Assembly (NCBI GenBank): GCA_016930085.1 | Contig: JAFGHO010000018.1 | Span: forward strand, 1 to 64,000 | Reading direction: 5' to 3' | From: Spirochaetales bacterium | GTDB lineage: Bacteria; Spirochaetota; Spirochaetia; SZUA-6; JAFGRV01 | Length of the DNA: 64,000 nucleotides | Shown here: positions 39,977 to 60,566 of the stretch, piece after piece | How the letters are laid out: every line of letters starts with the position of its first letter | How positions within the stretch are numbered: the first letter of the stretch is position 1 | Made by a program: the position numbers and the translations under genes | Notes under the pieces: generated by a model | What the model saw: the letters and a program-made list of their open reading frames with translations, nothing else | The model's database searches: none | Told to the model about the DNA's origin: nothing

Positions 39977-40267
39977 TTAATCGCTATGCTGACTGTTTTT
40001 TCGGATTAGAAATGCCGCGATATTGTCAAGGGAATCGAGATTTTCAGGAAGCAATTCGGTATCTTCGATTTTAACGCCAAAATTACTTTCAATAAACTCG
40101 ATCACTTCGAGAATTCCCGTTGAATCGATAATTCCATTTTCCATAAACGATATATCATCTTCAATCTGAAAGGATGTATCTCCGAACAGAAAAGTGGTAA
40201 TAATAAAATCTTTCACTTTTCTCTTTATTTCTTCCTTTTTTGCTTCCACTCGCACTCCGATCAGCAT
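39977..40267 (-). CDS. Acyl carrier protein-like protein
   Basis: 96 residues. NGIIDSTGILEVIEFIESNFGVKI carries the phosphopantetheine-attachment Ser in a DS motif followed by a hydrophobic helix, as in acyl or peptidyl carrier proteins. A GTG at 40249, preceded by GGAG, may be the real start. There is no adenylation or ketosynthase gene nearby, so this is an orphan carrier. It may serve acylation in the neighbouring polysaccharide or peptide pathway; this is a guess from position. Confidence 0.82.
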   Translation of the reverse strand: MLIGVRVEAKKEEIKRKVKDFIITTFLFGDTSFQIEDDISFMENGIIDSTGILEVIEFIESNFGVKIEDTELLPENLDSLDNIAAFLIRKNSQHSD

Positions 40268-40522: not shown

Positions 40523-41326
40523 CTAATACTGAATAAGACTGCCGTCTTTCTTTGCCCTCTTCACCGCATACCGGAAGAACAGGAGGCTGATCGGCCCCAT
40601 GATAATAATAAATATAACGAGATTGACAAGCGGGAATATGATTTCAACCGGATCGACCCGTGCAAGGAGGAGATCCCGAAGCGCGCGAATCGAATGTGTG
40701 ATGGGGAGTATATTGCCGATAACCCTGAGAGGTTCAGGGAGGACTTCCCTGGGGAAAAAAATCCCTCCCAGAAAGTAGCTCGATGAGCCGAAGAGGATAT
40801 CGATCGGATTGCCCTGCTTGAAAATCATGATAAATGCGGCGGAAAGCATGCCGACCGTAAGAAACGCAATAAAGGTGAGCATAAGAATGACGAGGGTGAT
40901 AAAAAGCTGTGAAACGATAATGGTGATACCGAGAAAAATCATACCCCCCGCAAGCATCAGTACCGAGCCGAGAAACGAGGTGACAAACGACCACATCGAG
41001 TTGCCGATGAGAACCGTATAAATCGATGTCGGGGTACTCAGGAGGGCTTCGAGGGTCCCTTTCACCTGGGCATCCCTGACATCGGAGGAAAGGGAGGATA
41101 GACCGACAAAGACGAAACTCGATACAGCCATGCCGACCAATACATAAGGGAAATACGACCCGCCGTAGGCCTCGAGATAGGGAGAAAGCGTATTACCGAA
41201 TGTTTGCCCGATGAAATAAAACATGAAGAGGGTCGCAATCATAAAGCCGAAACGGAGAATGATGTAAAACCGGTAACTCAGGGAAATCAGAAAATCCTTT
41301 TTGATAAAGGCTAATAATTTCATCAC
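40523..41326 (-). CDS. ABC-2 type transporter permease
   Basis: 267 residues with six hydrophobic segments: FGFMIATLFMFYFIGQTF, YVLVGMAVSSFVFVGLSSL, FVTSFLGSVLMLAGGMIFLGITII, FITLVILMLTFIAFLTVGML, SYFLGGIFFPREVLPEPLR and PLVNLVIFIIIMGPISLLFF. VKGTLEALLSTPTS is the ABC-2 family segment. It overlaps the ATPase gene upstream by four bases. It is divergent from the peptide-modifying genes at 42379, so it could export their product; polysaccharide export is an alternative. Confidence 0.85.
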   Translation of the reverse strand: MMKLLAFIKKDFLISLSYRFYIILRFGFMIATLFMFYFIGQTFGNTLSPYLEAYGGSYFPYVLVGMAVSSFVFVGLSSLSSDVRDAQVKGTLEALLSTPTSIYTVLIGNSMWSFVTSFLGSVLMLAGGMIFLGITIIVSQLFITLVILMLTFIAFLTVGMLSAAFIMIFKQGNPIDILFGSSSYFLGGIFFPREVLPEPLRVIGNILPITHSIRALRDLLLARVDPVEIIFPLVNLVIFIIIMGPISLLFFRYAVKRAKKDGSLIQY

Positions 41327-42276
41327 CGTTTCTCTCCTTCCGTCAATCGAAGAATGATATCGAAAAGTGAATCCTCCTGCACATTACAATTATATACCTC
41401 GCCCCCGTGTTCGATAATCGCCCTGAGTACGGCGGGTATCCCGCGTTCATCCCCGATCCGGAAACATATGCGGTGTTCATCCTGCGTGACGGAGAGGGAC
41501 GGGAAGCGGTCTTTCCACGTCATACGGGGCATTCCGATACATTTGATTTCCACATGGAGAAGCGGGTTCATCGTTTTTCGTATTTCATCCAGGCTTCCCC
41601 GGGCGATCACCCTGCCTTTGTCAAGTATTATAAGTCGATCGGAAAGGGTCTGGGCTTCGAGAACATCATGGGTACAAAGAAGGACGGTTGCTCCCATCTT
41701 TTGAATGAAATTGCGGATGATGAGATCATGAATCGATTTCTTTGTCACCGGATCAATGTGTGTCGTTGGTTCATCAAGAAGCAGAACATGCGGCTCGCCC
41801 AGAATCGCTCTGCCCAGAATGAGTTTTTGCTTCATCCCGGCAGAGTAATGTCTGAAGGGTTTGTCCCCTTCTTCCGCGAGTCCGATCTCTGCGAGTACCT
41901 CCTCAACCCGCTTTTTACGGATTCGCCCCTTGAGGCCATACAATGAAGCGAAAAAATCGAGATTTTGCCGGCCCGTCAATCGCCAGTAAAAAGAGCGGTC
42001 ATTCGGCGTTGCAAGGCCGATGCGGCCTTTATAGGCTCCCGGAATCGTCATGGTCCCATGATCCGGCGTGACAAGCCCCGCGATGATCTCGATAATTGTT
42101 GTCTTGCCCGCCCCGTTCGGACCCAGGAGACAGGTGATGTTACCTTGCGGGCAGGCAAAGCTTACACCGTCCAACGCCTTTGTCTTTTTAGACTTTTTCC
42201 ATGGCAGAAGCGAGGGTGTCCGGTATATTTTAACCACATCATTCATGACGATAATGTTTGTATTCACAATGCACAA
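41323..42276 (-). CDS. ABC transporter ATP-binding protein
   Basis: 317 residues: Walker A LLGPNGAGKTT, signature YSAGMKQKLILGRAIL, Walker B HVLLLDEPT and the H-loop LLCTHDV. The C-terminal 90 residues extend the nucleotide domain, as in DrrA-type exporters. The pair with the permease at 40523 makes a complete exporter. It faces away from the radical-SAM gene set across 102 bp, suggesting a shared promoter region. Confidence 0.93.
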   Translation of the reverse strand: MCIVNTNIIVMNDVVKIYRTPSLLPWKKSKKTKALDGVSFACPQGNITCLLGPNGAGKTTIIEIIAGLVTPDHGTMTIPGAYKGRIGLATPNDRSFYWRLTGRQNLDFFASLYGLKGRIRKKRVEEVLAEIGLAEEGDKPFRHYSAGMKQKLILGRAILGEPHVLLLDEPTTHIDPVTKKSIHDLIIRNFIQKMGATVLLCTHDVLEAQTLSDRLIILDKGRVIARGSLDEIRKTMNPLLHVEIKCIGMPRMTWKDRFPSLSVTQDEHRICFRIGDERGIPAVLRAIIEHGGEVYNCNVQEDSLFDIILRLTEGEKR

Positions 42277-42305
42277 GCATATATCAGAGAAACTCCATTT
42301 GCAAT

Positions 42306-42359
42306 AGGAGGAACAAATGAATTATGATTGAACCTGTAGAAGTGCTTTTTGCGCAGTAA
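42306..42359 (+). promoter_or_regulatory. Strong Shine-Dalgarno with two overlapping mini-ORFs
   Basis: AGGAGG at 42306-42311 leads to ATG AAT TAT GAT TGA at 42317-42331 (MNYD), overlapped by ATG at 42324 opening 11 codons to 42359. The main gene starts 20 nt later with a weaker site. It may be a translated leader; a chance arrangement is possible. Confidence 0.3.
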
Positions 42360-42378
42360 ACAAACGAATCGGGAACAG

Positions 42379-42849
42379 ATGAGTCATTATTCTGCAGAAC
42401 AGTGGATGAAACTTTTAACCGGCGAACTCGAGCCCGGAACGGAAATAGACCTCCCCGTCCTTACCGGGAGCATGTGTCCTTTAATCTGTCCCGGCGACAG
42501 GGTAAAAATTATGCGTGCCTTATGGAACAATTGTCATATTGGTGATATTATCATATTCAAGAAAGGCAATCAGTTAATTGCGCACAGGTTACTCTTGCGG
42601 TTTTCAATCGGAATAATCCAAATCTTTTTTCAAAAAGGAGATTTCAGTAAAAAAGGTTGTTTCATCAAAACGGATCAGATTGTGGGTAAAGTAATTCATG
42701 TCGTCAAACGGGACGGCAGCGTACATGAATATGGAAACAATCGAAAAGACGAGAGAACGATTGCCGTAAAAAAACTAATTCTTTCACTATCGGCGGCGGT
42801 CGTCAGTTATGGAAAGGAATTGATAAAATGGATATTCATTCATCCCTGA
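42379..42849 (+). CDS. SipW-like signal peptidase (S26B type)
   Basis: 156 residues from the ATG at 42379 (a TTG at 42349 is in frame). LPVLTGSMCPLICPGD gives Ser31 of the GSMxP motif; GDIIIF follows, and AHR (His69) replaces the Lys of ordinary bacterial LepB, so the dyad is Ser-His as in SipW and archaeal/ER signal peptidases. KTDQIVGKV is the downstream Asp motif. One C-terminal hydrophobic stretch could anchor it. In a peptide-modification cassette it is the natural candidate for leader or propeptide cleavage. It overlaps the HprK-like gene by 22 bases. Confidence 0.8.
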   Translation: MSHYSAEQWMKLLTGELEPGTEIDLPVLTGSMCPLICPGDRVKIMRALWNNCHIGDIIIFKKGNQLIAHRLLLRFSIGIIQIFFQKGDFSKKGCFIKTDQIVGKVIHVVKRDGSVHEYGNNRKDERTIAVKKLILSLSAAVVSYGKELIKWIFIHP

Positions 42850-43694
42850 GATGCAGCATACGGATCGGAGAAATAATAATCCATCTTCAATGCCCGACGG
42901 AAGATTATGCAAAGGACCTGCGGCGTTATTTTAATGCAAAAGACGAAAGCGGTCAGGGGATTGAAATAGAACTCGAAATTACGGCGGGGGAGGAGAATAT
43001 CGGGATACCGGAGTCCCTTTTTACTGAAAAATCGGTATCCGGCAATCACTTCACCATTACGGGGCACTCCGCCTCCGGATTCTTCGATGCGGCTACGGGA
43101 AAAGGAAAAATAAACGTTCATTATGCGCTGACGAGTTCCCTCAGGACCCGCCTTTTCGAACAGCTTATGTACCAGGCCTTTTACTCGGCGGTAAAAAGAA
43201 CGGCAGGACACAACCTTCTGATTCATTCCTGCGGCGTGATCAGGGACGATCGCGGCTATCTCTTTGTGGGAAAATCAGAAAGCGGGAAGACGACGATCGC
43301 AGGATTGAGCAAAACGTATTCCGTCCTGAACGATGAAATAACGATGATCGATCTTGACGGAAAGATACCGGTACTGCACAGCACCCCTTTTAACGGCTAT
43401 TTCACATCCAAGGTTGAAGGAAAAGCGCCGTTAAGCTCACTGTTTATTCTCAGACAATCACATAAACATGCCGTTACGGAAATCAGAAAGAGTACGGCGG
43501 TGAAGACCATTTTCCATGAGATCGTCCCCATAACTGGCCTTGAAGATGAAATCACGGGGGAAACACATGAGCGTATGCTCGATGACGCATCGGAGATCGC
43601 GGAAAAAACGCCCGTTTATATACTCGAATTCCGCAAAGACGCGGGATTCTGGGCTGAAATCGATACCATGACAAAAAAAAACGGAGTCATATAA
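42828..43694 (+). CDS. HprK-like kinase of a peptide-modification cassette
   Basis: 288 residues. A poorly conserved N-terminal half precedes LLIHSCGVIRDDRGYLFVGKS and the P-loop GKSESGKTT (148-156), then DEITMID as Walker B-like Asp/Glu. The C-terminal half (HSTPFNGYF, PLSSLFILRQS) fits HPr-kinase-related proteins found with PqqD and radical SAM genes, and the kinases of some lasso-peptide clusters that phosphorylate the precursor. No HPr gene is nearby, so the substrate may be the precursor peptide; that is inference. It ends just before the pqqD-like gene. Confidence 0.82.
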   Translation: MDIHSSLRCSIRIGEIIIHLQCPTEDYAKDLRRYFNAKDESGQGIEIELEITAGEENIGIPESLFTEKSVSGNHFTITGHSASGFFDAATGKGKINVHYALTSSLRTRLFEQLMYQAFYSAVKRTAGHNLLIHSCGVIRDDRGYLFVGKSESGKTTIAGLSKTYSVLNDEITMIDLDGKIPVLHSTPFNGYFTSKVEGKAPLSSLFILRQSHKHAVTEIRKSTAVKTIFHEIVPITGLEDEITGETHERMLDDASEIAEKTPVYILEFRKDAGFWAEIDTMTKKNGVI

Positions 43695-43985
43695 ATGGAT
43701 ATATTCGAAATGATACCGGTCACAAATAGTCAGCTTACCGTCAGAGAGATTGGTGATGATATCGTCATTCTATCGGAGGAGACCCTGGAGATTCACAACC
43801 TCGAGGGTTCCGCCGCGTTCCTCTGGAAGTGTATCGATGGGAAAACGACTGTCGGCGATATACGTGATAAACTTTGCCATGAGTATGAGGTAACGGCCGA
43901 GCAGGCAAAGGATGATATCGCCGAGTTTTTTGATGAATGCGAAAAAAAGAACCTCATCTCTTTTCGCGATACGGACAAAGAATGA
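43695..43985 (+). CDS. PqqD-family peptide chaperone (RiPP recognition element)
   Basis: 96 residues: VREIGDDIVILSEETLEIHNLEGSAAFLWKCIDGKTTVGDIRDKLCHEYEV, the PqqD fold with the winged-helix-like pattern that binds leader peptides. These proteins hold the precursor for the radical SAM enzyme. It starts one base after the kinase stop and its own stop overlaps the radical SAM start (ATGA), so the three are co-translated. Confidence 0.9.
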   Translation: MDIFEMIPVTNSQLTVREIGDDIVILSEETLEIHNLEGSAAFLWKCIDGKTTVGDIRDKLCHEYEVTAEQAKDDIAEFFDECEKKNLISFRDTDKE

Positions 43986-45067
43986 ATATGCCGGGTGCGG
44001 ATGATCCCGCCGATATAAAACGGATTGAAGAGAGTCTCCACGCGCAGCTGAATAAACGATATCAAAGGGAAAACCGTATTTTTTCCGTTCTCGTTGAAGT
44101 GACGCACCGCTGTGTCTCCCGCTGTATCCACTGTTTTCTCCTGAAAAACCGCCGGGATGAACTCGAACCGGATGAAATTGAGGATGTATTCGATCAACTC
44201 GCAAAAGAGGGAACGATCGAACTCGCGTTAAGCGGGGGAGAACCCTTTTTACGCGATGATTTTCCGGAAATACTGGCCAAAGCTTCACGTCACCGCTTCT
44301 TTGTTACCATCCTTACGACGGGCATATTGATCCAAAAGCCCGAAGTGACATTACTGGAACGGAACCGTATTAAAAAAATAGAGTTATCGCTTCTTGGCTC
44401 GCGGCCTGAAACACATGATGCCATCATGAATCATGAGGGGGCATTCAACCGTTTAAAGCGGGCGGTAAAATTGTTGAAGCATGCCGATTTCATGATAGCG
44501 CTCAAAGCGACGATTATGCGGCAGAATGTCCGTGAAATCGAGGAAATGCGGAATCTGGCTGAAGAATGGGGTGTCCGGTTTTCCGCAAGTCTTTCCCTGA
44601 CGCCGCGTGAGAACGGAGACAGAACCCCCCAATCCTTCGGACTGGATGCGGATGTCATTGAAACCCTGGACCCGTCATTGCTCGATTTCGCGCCGCTTCA
44701 TAGCGGGGAGTCGCTGAAAAAGCCGCAGCTTACCTGCCGGGCGGGAAGTACGGTCGCGGGGATTTCTCCGGCCGGCGATATATTTCCATGTATATTGATG
44801 AGAAAAAAGGTAGGGAATATCCGCCAACAAAGCCTGGAAGAGATCTGGCATACTCATCCGTCACCATTTCTCAGGGAAATAAGAGCTTTGAAGGAAACCG
44901 ATATCGCAGAATGTTACCGGTGCGAGCGTGTCGCGATATGTCCGCGATGTTCCGGTACAGCGTATATGGAGACGGGCAGTCTCATCATGCCTTCTCCCAG
45001 TGCCTGTATATATTCGAAAGGAATAAAAAAAGCGCTGTTGCGCAGAGAGGGAAAAAACGACGTTTAA
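43982..45067 (+). CDS. Radical SAM/SPASM peptide-modifying enzyme
   Basis: 361 residues from the ATG at 43982, which overlaps the pqqD stop (the frame is open from 43937). The radical SAM cluster motif is CVSRCIHC (Cys44, 48, 51), followed by LSGGEPFLRDDF for SAM binding. The C-terminus is a SPASM domain: CRAGSTVAGISPAGDIFPC (Cx12Gx4C), CYRCERVAICPRC (Cx2Cx5Cx2C) and a last Cys in ACIYSKG. Such enzymes install thioether, carbon-carbon or other links on peptides. Next to PqqD it is expected to act on the small peptide encoded opposite at 45187. Confidence 0.94.
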   Translation: MNMPGADDPADIKRIEESLHAQLNKRYQRENRIFSVLVEVTHRCVSRCIHCFLLKNRRDELEPDEIEDVFDQLAKEGTIELALSGGEPFLRDDFPEILAKASRHRFFVTILTTGILIQKPEVTLLERNRIKKIELSLLGSRPETHDAIMNHEGAFNRLKRAVKLLKHADFMIALKATIMRQNVREIEEMRNLAEEWGVRFSASLSLTPRENGDRTPQSFGLDADVIETLDPSLLDFAPLHSGESLKKPQLTCRAGSTVAGISPAGDIFPCILMRKKVGNIRQQSLEEIWHTHPSPFLREIRALKETDIAECYRCERVAICPRCSGTAYMETGSLIMPSPSACIYSKGIKKALLRREGKNDV

Positions 45068-45186
45068 TCAGTGTATTTCACGACAATACTATATTCCCAA
45101 TAACGTGAGTAGCTTTTTACGTCTGCACAGCTTTTAATTATAAGTCAGATTAACGTTTCAAAAAAACCGTATGAGAGAAAAACGCA

Positions 45187-45327
45187 TCAACCTTTACAGC
45201 ATACTCCCCAAATCCAGGCGGGCCGGATGAATTTCAACGGGCCGCTCTGCTGTCCGTAACAGCCGAAAACCCCTATTTCCATCTTTTCACTCTGGATAAC
45301 CGGTTTTGTATATGTCTTCTTCATCAT
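45187..45327 (-). CDS. Candidate RiPP precursor peptide
   Basis: A 45-46 residue ORF too short for ordinary gene lists, antisense to and 120 bp beyond the radical SAM gene. AAAAAGGGG precedes two Met codons; the second (45324) has better spacing. The N-terminus MKKTYTKPVIQSEKMEIG is Lys/Glu-rich like known leader peptides (K-x-Y-x-KP-x-I-x-SE). The C-terminal half contains FGCYG (Cys22), PLKFIRPAWIWG with two Trp, and a final VCCKG with Cys42-Cys43 (numbering from the second Met). Leader-like start, Cys/Trp-rich core and neighbourhood fit a radical-SAM RiPP precursor. No homologues could be searched. Confidence 0.78.
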   Translation of the reverse strand: MMKKTYTKPVIQSEKMEIGVFGCYGQQSGPLKFIRPAWIWGVCCKG

Positions 45328-45528
45328 TTGCCCCTTTTTCAATACATGATGTATAAAATTTACTATATAATTACATATTTTTTTTATTCTGTCAAGTTTT
45401 TTTTTGTTTTTTTTCAGATTGAATTCAAAGAAAATCGTGATGATCGTATTAATCCGATGAATCCGGGGCCGGTATGATATGCCGGATAATTGACAGCAAA
45501 GAAAGCCTTTTACTATAATAGCCGTATA

Positions 45529-46755
45529 ATGGCATTAGTATTACGAAAAAAGGAAGACCTGTTCGTTATCGCCCTTATTCTCAATGACACCCGAAAAGCG
45601 GAGAATATAATCAATACCAGCGCGCTCGACTGGAAATACATATTGACTGTCCTCGAGAAGAACAAGATAAGGGCCAGGTGCGCGGACACGCTTTTATCGA
45701 TCCCGCTTCCGGCTTCAATAAGCGGAAAACTGAAAAAATACATTACGGCCGCTCTTTTTGAAGCAAAACTGAATAAAAAGATATACATGAGTGAACTCGC
45801 AAAAATAGGGGGCGTATTAAAAAAAAATGATATCGATTTTATACTGCTTAAAGGATTGTCGATCGACCAGGGGGGATTACGAGATATCGGAGATCTCGAT
45901 CTACTGGTACACGAGCACGACCTGAAAAATATTTTCCCTCTCCTGCACGGCATTAACTATACATACAATGAAGACACCTGTGACATTGAATTAAACAAAA
46001 ACGAGATGAATGACGTATTCGAACAATTGCATTGGAATATTCACTTTGGCTTTTTTAATGAAAAGACCGGATTGTTGTGCGAGATTCATACAAACCTCTT
46101 TCACAAAGACAGAATGTACATCGAAAATCTGGATGTTTTGACAAACGGCATTTCTTCTTTCTGGAATAACAGGGTGTACAACTCCCTGCTGGGCTGCCAT
46201 ACGCTTTCGAAAGAAGATTTATTGATACTCATGTGTATCCACGTGACGATAAAAAGGGCCCTTAAAAAAAACCGGTTTGCGCTTCGCGGATTGCTGGATA
46301 TTAAAACGATTGTCGAAAACGACATTGATTGGGATTATTTCTATGAAAGGATGAACCGGCTGCAAGTGAATTATTATGTATTTTTTGCTTTAAAATTCAC
46401 ATATAGTATATTAAATATGAGTGCTTTACTTGATAATATCGGAATAATTAAAAAAACATTGAAAAAACGGGAACTCTTTTTAAGCAGGATCCATTTCAGG
46501 TGTTTTCTGACATTACGGGACAGCGCTGTATTTTACATTAAAATTTACGATTTTTTTATGCCGTTTATATTGGGAAAACAGATGCAGCACAAATTGAAAA
46601 GCCTCTTTATTCTGCCGCTTTTTATTCCGACGCGATTGAGAATGGAGCAAATATTCGGTATCGATAGACGGTCACCCTTGATTTATCTTGCTTATCTGGC
46701 ACTCCCTTTCCGGTGGCTGTTTTTGTTTATTAACAGATTCAAACACATAAAGTAA
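45529..46755 (+). CDS. NTP_transf_5-family nucleotidyltransferase-like protein
   Basis: 408 residues from the ATG at 45529; an in-frame TTG at 45490 gives 421. ILLKGLSIDQGGLRDIGDLDLLVHEHDL carries the DxD metal site of the fold, and QLHWNIH, EIHTNLFH and LLDIKTIVEND belong to the NTP_transf_5 family. These genes recur beside PqqD/HprK-like and lasso-peptide gene sets, with an unknown role. The last third is basic and aromatic. It ends the cassette; next is a 498-bp gap with a palindrome and an inverted-repeat element. Confidence 0.83.
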   Translation: MALVLRKKEDLFVIALILNDTRKAENIINTSALDWKYILTVLEKNKIRARCADTLLSIPLPASISGKLKKYITAALFEAKLNKKIYMSELAKIGGVLKKNDIDFILLKGLSIDQGGLRDIGDLDLLVHEHDLKNIFPLLHGINYTYNEDTCDIELNKNEMNDVFEQLHWNIHFGFFNEKTGLLCEIHTNLFHKDRMYIENLDVLTNGISSFWNNRVYNSLLGCHTLSKEDLLILMCIHVTIKRALKKNRFALRGLLDIKTIVENDIDWDYFYERMNRLQVNYYVFFALKFTYSILNMSALLDNIGIIKKTLKKRELFLSRIHFRCFLTLRDSAVFYIKIYDFFMPFILGKQMQHKLKSLFILPLFIPTRLRMEQIFGIDRRSPLIYLAYLALPFRWLFLFINRFKHIK

Positions 46756-58745: not shown

Positions 58746-60566
58746 ATGCCTGGCATATCAGGAATTATTTCAAAGGCCAATAATAGTCAAAACAAACGGC
58801 GAATTCTGGAAATGACGAACGCGATGATGCATGAGTCTTTTTATAATTCAGGTACATATATAAATGAAAATGATGGAATATATATCGGCTGGGTCTCACA
58901 TCGGGGGTCTTTCGATGACTGTCTGCCGGTGACGAATGAAACAAAAAATTTATTGCTTTTTTTCTCCGGTGAAAATTATATTGACAATGCCCTGCTCGAT
59001 CACCTCAAGAAGAAACAGCATATGTTCGATGCCTCGAATGCGAGTTATCTGATTCATCTCTATGAAGAGCAAGGGGATGATTTTTATTTAACATTAAACG
59101 GCTTTTTCAGCGGGATTCTTGTCGATCTCAACAGGCAAACGCTTATCCTTTTTAACGACAGATTCGGAATGAAGCGTGTTTATGCATATACAGACGACGA
59201 TGAGTTCCTGTTTTCAAACGAGGCAAAATCCATTTTACGCGTGCAAAAAAAAACGCGCCGTCTTGAAGAAAAAAATCTGGGAGAATATTTTTCCCTGGGA
59301 TGCGCGCTGGAGAATAACACCATATTCTCCAACATACAAACATTGGAATGCGGATCAAAATGGACGTTTATCAAGGCTGAACATGTTAAAAAGGAACGTT
59401 ATTTCAGTCCGCGATCGTGGGAAGATCAACCTGTCCTCGATGAAAGCCGCTATTATACAAAACTGAAAGAAACATTCCGGAAAATTCTGCCCCGTTATAT
59501 AAAGCCCGAAGAAAACGTTGCTATCTCATTAACCGGCGGGCTGGATACGCGTATGATCATGGCATATATCGATACAGACAGGATGAAACCGGAATGCTAT
59601 ACATTCGGCGGGTTTTACAGAGATAGCTATGATGTTAAAATCGCCAGAAAAATAGCCCGTGCCTGCGGACTCCGCCATCAAACATTGCGTATCGATGACG
59701 GCTTTTTAAAAGAATTTCCCGACCTTGTCGAAAAAACGATATTTGTTACGGACGGAAATATGAATCTCAATGGCGCCGCTATGCTTTTTGTCAATAAAAT
59801 GGCAAGGGAAATCGCGCCTGTTCGGTTAACGGGAAATTATGGAAGTGAAATAATCAGGAAAGTAAGTAATTTTAAATTCAATCCTCCCGATTGCGGCCTT
59901 TTTTCATACGATATGCGTCAAAATATTAACCTCGCCGCAGAAAGCTTCCGTTCGATTAAACACGGACGGGATTTATCTTTTACCCTTTTCAAACAATTAC
60001 CTTTATATCATTATAATTCCTTCTCACTGGAGGCGACGCAATTGATGGTACGCTCTCCGTTTACCGACAACGATTTCATTGAGGTCGCATACCGGAAGCC
60101 GCAATCAATTGATGAAAGGGCTTTGTTACTCCAACTCATTTTTGACGGAAACAAAGAATTGGGCGCAATGATATCGGACAGGGGTATTAAAAGAAATTCC
60201 ATCTTCCCGGTATCGTTCATACGGCACGCATATTACGAATTTCTTTTTAAAATGGAATATTATTTCAATTACGGAATGCCCCAATTTCTGTCAAAACTCA
60301 TGTATATTCTTGGGCACCGGCACCTGGAGAAGATTTTTCTGGGATGGCATAAATACTATCATTTAAGACCGATTATCAGGGATACCTGTTCGGACTATCT
60401 TAACATACTGCTTGATCAGAAAACACTCTCACGGTCTTTTTTCAATAAAGCGTTTATTGAAAAAATGGTAAACGATCATTTGAAGGGATACAAAAATTAT
60501 ACGGTAGAAATAAACACCGCCCTTTCAATAGAACTGACGTGTCGCCTTCTATTGGAACAATTTTGA
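58746..60566 (+). CDS. Asparagine-synthase-like protein lacking Cys2
   Basis: 606 residues. The start is fixed by TAAGGAG before ATG and reads MPGISGIISK. Glutamine amidotransferases of this family begin MCGI, where Cys2 is the nucleophile; here it is Pro, so the glutaminase domain should be inactive. LILFNDRFGMKRVYAYT and FLFSNEAKSIL are the rest of that domain. The synthetase domain has the PP-loop ISLTGGLDTRMIMAYID. These proteins occur in exopolysaccharide loci and may use ammonia or act as an adenylating enzyme. Asparagine formation is not assumed. Confidence 0.87.
   Translation: MPGISGIISKANNSQNKRRILEMTNAMMHESFYNSGTYINENDGIYIGWVSHRGSFDDCLPVTNETKNLLLFFSGENYIDNALLDHLKKKQHMFDASNASYLIHLYEEQGDDFYLTLNGFFSGILVDLNRQTLILFNDRFGMKRVYAYTDDDEFLFSNEAKSILRVQKKTRRLEEKNLGEYFSLGCALENNTIFSNIQTLECGSKWTFIKAEHVKKERYFSPRSWEDQPVLDESRYYTKLKETFRKILPRYIKPEENVAISLTGGLDTRMIMAYIDTDRMKPECYTFGGFYRDSYDVKIARKIARACGLRHQTLRIDDGFLKEFPDLVEKTIFVTDGNMNLNGAAMLFVNKMAREIAPVRLTGNYGSEIIRKVSNFKFNPPDCGLFSYDMRQNINLAAESFRSIKHGRDLSFTLFKQLPLYHYNSFSLEATQLMVRSPFTDNDFIEVAYRKPQSIDERALLLQLIFDGNKELGAMISDRGIKRNSIFPVSFIRHAYYEFLFKMEYYFNYGMPQFLSKLMYILGHRHLEKIFLGWHKYYHLRPIIRDTCSDYLNILLDQKTLSRSFFNKAFIEKMVNDHLKGYKNYTVEINTALSIELTCRLLLEQF

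Follow-up and report, generated by a model that had tools for sequence, protein, structure and literature searches.

Organization of the locus

Here we analyzed a stretch of 64,000 nucleotides from a Spirochaetales bacterium (contig JAFGHO010000018.1; hereafter the window), in which positions 40523-46755 had been proposed in a preliminary description to encode a system for a ribosomally synthesized and post-translationally modified peptide (RiPP). All the genes listed there were recovered at the same positions in our examination of the open reading frames (ORFs) and of the Pfam and NCBIfam matches. Four of them form a tightly coupled operon on the + strand, which encodes an S26 peptidase of the ER type (SipW-, SEC11-like; 42349..42849, with an alternative start at 42379; SEC11C profile match 1.4e-9) that we propose to be the leader peptidase, an HprK/ScmC-like kinase proposed to act on the peptide (42828..43694; NCBIfam ScmC 4.7e-10), a PqqD-type discrete RiPP recognition element (RRE; 43695..43985; Pfam PqqD 1.9e-18) and a radical S-adenosylmethionine (SAM)/SPASM enzyme (rSAM; 43982..45067; Pfam Radical_SAM 6.6e-21, SPASM 1.5e-11). 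The coupling by overlaps noted earlier holds, in that the S26 and HprK genes overlap by 22 bp, the HprK and PqqD genes abut, and the PqqD and rSAM genes have an ATGA in common at 43982-43985. This last overlap presupposes the rSAM start at 43982, which fits the homologous sequences and is more likely than the position from which the ORF is open (43937).

Convergent to this operon lies the gene for a precursor peptide of 46 amino acids (45187..45327, - strand), MMKKTYTKPVIQSEKMEIGVFGCYGQQSGPLKFIRPAWIWGVCCKG, whose leader contains YTKPVIQSEKMEIGVFG and which ends in a C-terminal CC; it is present in a single copy in the genome. Its start is most likely the ATG at 45327, just 5' of which stands a Shine-Dalgarno-like AAGGGG, and a promoter-like TTGACA-17-AATTAT is found at 45395-45367. 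The exporter genes are divergent from the operon and encode, on the - strand, an ABC-2 type permease (DrrB/NodJ-like; 40523..41326; Pfam ABC2_membrane 1.4e-14) and an ABC ATPase (DrrA-like; 41323..42276; Pfam ABC_tran 9.9e-25; NCBIfam drrA 5.8e-63, below cut-off). Downstream is the gene for an NTP_transf_5 nucleotidyltransferase-like protein, to be compared with LppN/PsmN (45490..46755, + strand; Pfam NTP_transf_5 2.2e-31), whose true start is probably later than 45490, because this position falls within a perfect match to TTGACA-18-TATAAT.

A conserved leader and a variable core in ten loci

Nine relatives of this cassette (G003, G074, G100, G130, G219, G433, G443, G491 and G503) were obtained by searching related genomes with the kinase and by using the peptide alignment to search the phylum. 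All are from the same phylum, and together with the window they make the ten loci considered below. Some of these assemblies are incomplete (G074, 81%; G443, 77%), the cassette end in G074 being contiguous. The leader motif YxxPx[ILV]x[ST]Ex4GVFGxY is common to the precursors of all ten loci, and the core following it is variable. The precursors, in which a slash marks the end of GVFG and nothing else, are MMKKTYTKPVIQSEKMEIGVFG/CYGQQSGPLKFIRPAWIWGVCCKG in the window, MSKVYVTPKVTSETVELGVFG/SYGHSGFHRPRKPRRPWLWWLW in G074, MYKKAYSKPQIISEKLNAGVFG/SYGSGGGGSISMLKSKRTDAVLNFGPFCCEKNIWPF in G003, MKKSYIPPKVKTEKVELGVFG/CYGSSGGDFWEQMSPLKFIASLFKVLCCD in G130, MKKSYIPPTLKTEKVELGVFG/CYGTNGGNPGNWGMNSFWHWFRKLMNW in G100, MEEKKVYSKPEIKTETIVLGVFG/DYNQSGDQNTQTGIGGFLAGW in G219, MKKTYCKPTIISEQIKVGVFG/SYGCNGGNGNFGKHNKGFLRWWFHFSPRRHHKYM in G503, MKKNYVTPSITSEEIKVGVFG/CYGSSGGNNGGGQFHHYRRHPWFLFFC in G433, MNKKMYSKPLLKSESIEIGVFG/CYGSTSTWTPVKIWNPLFGWCCS in G443 and MKKEYQVPTIISEQIKVGVFG/AYGSNSGPIAILAPFFGLCCS in G491. 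The leader pattern occurs once per locus, always adjoining the cassette; it stands nowhere else in the 383 kb of scanned loci, nor did any of 20 shuffles contain it. The precursor gene is convergent to the operon in nine loci and follows the PqqD gene on the same strand in the tenth (G219). GVFG is followed in every precursor by a small residue (C, S, A or D), and a Ser or Thr stands within three residues past Y-G/N in 9/10 precursors. None of the NCBIfam models and nothing relevant in the PDB was matched by the precursors. Because a conserved leader is joined here to a variable core and to a constant RRE neighbour, we consider these peptides to be RiPP precursors. The proposal of an RiPP system is thus strongly supported, the same gene set and a peptide of this kind recurring in ten loci, and the search of other genomes that had been suggested found the peptide kept beside HprK and PqqD in nine further genomes.

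The kinase, the RRE and the precursor are present in every locus, the S26 peptidase in eight (the copy in G503 being fused to the kinase), NTP_transf_5 in eight (the window and 7/9 relatives) and rSAM in six. Both exporter genes occur in 8/10 loci, to which a permease remnant of 140 amino acids in G219 is added, so that among the relatives a permease homologue, this remnant included, adjoins the cassette in 8/9 and the ATPase in 7/9. Searches around G130, G433, G443 and G074 for more genomes of the phylum gave no further loci, no HprK match was found in plasmids or in viral contigs, and inspection of one weaker match (G121, E=0.006) found no cassette member at that locus. A more distant set of HprK, PqqD and S26 genes in G252 (L021), accompanied by an ABC exporter of 628 amino acids and a possible precursor of 118, was left out of the counts.

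Conserved residues of the peptidase, the kinase and the recognition element

Among described systems, the Linear Polyphosphorylated Peptide (LPP) family, represented by the lppAKBSDN genes of Paenibacillus alginolyticus (Popov et al., May 2026; PMC13381572), comes closest to this one. According to that study, the LPP set comprises the SipW-like LppS, the RRE LppB, the HprK-like LppK and LppN, together with an exporter of the MsbA type; Ser3 of the LppA core is the residue that LppK polyphosphorylates, LppS cleaves only with LppB, and the YxxP leader is held by LppB through D70 and F74, which contact its Tyr and Pro. The preliminary description had regarded the combination of a Ser-His signal peptidase with no cyclase as one not known; this is now out of date, since it is the gene set described for LPP (PMC13381572).

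Neither the S26 nor the HprK gene gave a significant Pfam match. The best NCBIfam match of the peptidase, sigpep_I_arch (1.8e-8), is below the curated cut-off, and its hydropathy reveals no membrane-spanning segment. Among the eight homologues Ser41 and Asp98 of the KGD motif are invariant and His79 is conserved in seven; the Ser and the His are spaced as S29 and H68 of LppS, with the invariant KGD Asp 19 residues past the His. In G503 the peptidase and the kinase form one ORF of 478 amino acids (L032:7253-8689). In the case of the kinase, H133, the Walker-A K154, D169 and E170 are invariant in the ten members, a His-Lys-Asp-Glu arrangement that can be set beside the His-Lys-Asp-Asp motif known from lasso kinases (PMC9266682), with E replacing the second D. 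A comparison of the kinase with the PDB yielded no relative beyond P-loop noise. The RRE carries an invariant D74 and F78 with the spacing of the D70/F74 pair of LppB, and its profile matches were TbiB1 (1.3e-15), PbaB1 (9x90; 1.1e-11) and LppB (9x8z; 4.4e-9).

That the RRE is nearest to lasso B1 proteins and that the leader is of the YxxP type would agree with a lasso-type pathway, in which the peptide would be cyclised by an Asn-synthase-like protein encoded elsewhere in the locus (58746-60566) and rSAM would be a tailoring enzyme. This Asn_synthase/GATase_7 protein lies 12 kb downstream and matches the lasso cyclase model at 2e-23; no second Asn-synthase-like protein was recognised in the window. 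The match amounts, however, to 83 bits where the cut-off is 525, the asn_synth_AEB model gives a better score, and the surrounding genes are of the Wzx/Wzy/deacetylase kind. The cassette has no recognisable transglutaminase-like B2, and reading the ORF lists of the nine relatives by eye revealed neither a B2 peptidase nor an Asn-synthase-like cyclase, so that we regard a lasso-type pathway as very improbable. The phosphorylated lasso peptides paeninodin and pseudomycoidin do have in common with our loci an HprK-like kinase, an NTP transferase, a discrete PqqD-type B1 and a [Y/W]xxP leader, but the cassette described here has neither the cyclase C nor the B2 cysteine peptidase. Phosphorylation of a C-terminal Ser as in paeninodin was ruled out, Ser ending only 2/10 cores. 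The Asn-synthase-like protein starts with MPGISGI and is without Cys2.

The radical SAM enzyme and the C-terminal cysteines

The loci with rSAM are the window, G003, G130, G433, G443 and G491, and their precursors end in CCKG, CCEKNIWPF, CCD, C, CCS and CCS, respectively; G074, G100, G219 and G503 are without it. A Cys at or near the precursor C-terminus is therefore found in 6/6 loci with rSAM (five with CC and one with C) and in 0/4 of the others (Fisher p=0.0048). In the four assemblies of the latter group the orthologue is absent genome-wide and has not moved elsewhere, as the enzyme profile scored 548-561 bits for the six and at most 114 for any other protein. G130 and G100 belong to the same genus and have common flanks and a near-identical leader and yet differ in rSAM and in the core: G130 has rSAM and a core ending in VLCCD, and G100 has neither. 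Four of the CC cores (window, G130, G443 and G491) have a common xP[LVI][KA]...CC pattern. The radical-SAM cysteines and the full SPASM cysteine set are invariant in the six homologues, and two auxiliary clusters would be expected for an enzyme of this family. Our best reading of these sequences is that rSAM is optional, a Cys-directed step that would be plugged into and out of an LPP-like pathway.

On a tree of the kinase and the RRE three changes of rSAM state are needed; only two independent pairs fall on well-supported branches, too few for a test of the association by independent contrasts to become significant. With so few independent transitions, with one Cys only in G433 and with cores rich in Trp, Phe and Tyr, rSAM could act instead on aromatic or Gly positions of an LPP-like peptide, the C-terminal Cys association coming from descent or chance. 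We hold this to be unlikely, because the close relatives G130/G100 and G503/G491/G433 differ in both traits together and Cys cores are found in Chloroflexota rSAM loci too. The sole yield of a scan of genome contigs was a Chloroflexota rSAM/HprK locus, and in that phylum there are more distant HprK, PqqD and rSAM cassettes, some with S26, NTP_transf_5 and ABC genes. Seven of them (L053-L057, L059 and L060) have YxxP-type peptides (one WxxP) by the rSAM gene, with Cys in the core in 7/7 readable cases; no NCBIfam model among those tested was matched above cut-off by these cassettes. A peptide at L056:7645-7872 has a YEKPTIRDLGDV leader and several Cys-containing repeats (GDCNAG and similar), and adjoins two PqqD, two rSAM, HprK and NTP_transf_5 genes.

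The likeness to SynChlorMet (SCM) systems (TIGR04249, TIGR04248, TIGR04250) that had been noted is fair. ScmC is the best NCBIfam match of the kinase (and is matched by 9/10 members), ScmE that of rSAM (9.9e-38), and for the RRE ScmD comes second, nearly as close as the first, lasso_PqqD_Bac. All these matches are far below cut-off (39 of 125 bits for ScmC, 130 of 400 for ScmE and 37 of 100 for ScmD), and the loci differ from SCM in containing S26, NTP_transf_5 and an ABC-2 exporter, as well as in having an identified precursor. Membership of that system, in a form that has ScmC, ScmD and ScmE, lacks ScmF and makes a product of the SCM type, is improbable in our judgement, given that the ten cassettes have one rSAM or none, as opposed to ScmE plus ScmF, and that four have none at all. 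Our data do supply precursor candidates for ScmC/ScmD/ScmE-like cassettes. Sactipeptide and ranthipeptide systems (AlbA, StsB, PapB) also couple an rSAM/SPASM enzyme to a Cys-containing precursor, but the similarity is weak, a kinase and an S26 peptidase are present here, and rSAM is dispensable in four loci.

A probable LPP-like pathway and its proposed maturation steps

The likeness to LPP extends over most of the cassette, including the SpI/SipW-like peptidase gene (SEC11-type profile match; 8/10 loci), a discrete RRE that is predicted to bind YxxP and keeps both pocket residues, D and F, the HprK-like kinase (10/10), the NTP transferase (8/10), an exporter, a variable core and the absence of a cyclase. 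The Ser or Thr found soon after the leader motif in 9/10 precursors resembles Ser3 of LppA. The leaders have only YxxPx[ILV] in common, that of LPP being YxxPxVLxHQxIxFETxxS; the exporter is ABC-2, DrrAB-like here and MsbA-like in LPP; and the optional rSAM/SPASM enzyme and a host phylum outside Bacillota are further differences from a family that was called Bacillota-restricted and in whose description radical SAM enzymes are unmentioned (PMC13381572). We therefore call the system LPP-like and not a proven LPP member, because the leader motif and the exporter type do not agree and an rSAM step is added.

Taking the gene set, the conserved leader, the variable core, the conserved catalytic residues and the association of rSAM with Cys, as they appear in the sequences, we consider it likely that the locus encodes an LPP-like RiPP pathway outside Bacillota with a radical-SAM branch. 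From these features we infer the biochemical steps, including the exact cut site, the phosphosite and the cross-link. The YxxPxI leader of the 46-residue peptide would be bound by the PqqD protein, and the peptide would be phosphorylated by the HprK-like kinase, most likely on a Ser just past GVFGxYG. The C-terminal vicinal cysteines would be modified by rSAM/SPASM, most likely into thioether cross-links. PqqD would present the leader to the soluble S26 peptidase, which would cut within GVFGxYG; given the small residue that directly follows GVFG, a cut after VFG, FGx or xYG would each fit signal-peptidase-like cleavage. NTP_transf_5 may decorate the phosphate further, and the product would leave through the ABC-2 exporter, which itself has no peptidase domain. 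To the further proposal of a distinct RiPP subclass, in which LPP-type phosphorylation and signal-peptidase maturation would be combined with a plug-in rSAM acting on the C-terminal Cys-Cys to give a phosphorylated, thioether-bridged exported peptide, we assign an even chance.

Several observations weigh against the pathway as drawn. In the precursor of G503 the motif is not directly followed by a Ser or Thr, G003 and G443 are without S26 and NTP_transf_5 nearby, and in the S26 protein of G433 (L033:6414-6920) a Tyr replaces the catalytic His. Judged by spacing, the S26 homologues do not conserve the third catalytic Asp of LppS (D93), LppB is a more distant match of the RRE profile than the lasso B1 proteins are, and the single-sequence structure prediction of the kinase was unusable (pLDDT 33.9). 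Finally, G433 combines rSAM with one terminal Cys only, and the rSAM-Cys association, drawn from ten loci with 2-3 independent gains or losses, is suggestive and not proved.

The LPP-like reading would extend the LPP gene logic to another phylum and, more loosely, to Chloroflexota. The core of S26 peptidase, RRE and kinase is modular, as these comparisons show, with natural pairs of same-genus loci with and without rSAM, and such pairs make the substrate of rSAM (the C-terminal cysteines) directly testable.

Genomic setting of the cassette

In the window the cassette lies inside a polysaccharide locus, a setting that recalls the Bacilli LPP clusters, which are often within capsule loci (PMC13381572). 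The link to polysaccharide genes drawn earlier did not extend to the nine relatives: the genes flanking the cassette differ among genomes, and for this reason the polysaccharide surroundings seen in the window do not belong to the system. With the dTDP-sugar genes on one side and the exporter on the other, the window also encodes a small acyl-carrier-like protein (39977-40267), whose best NCBIfam match, below cut-off, is an ornithine-lipid acyl carrier protein (4.6e-13).

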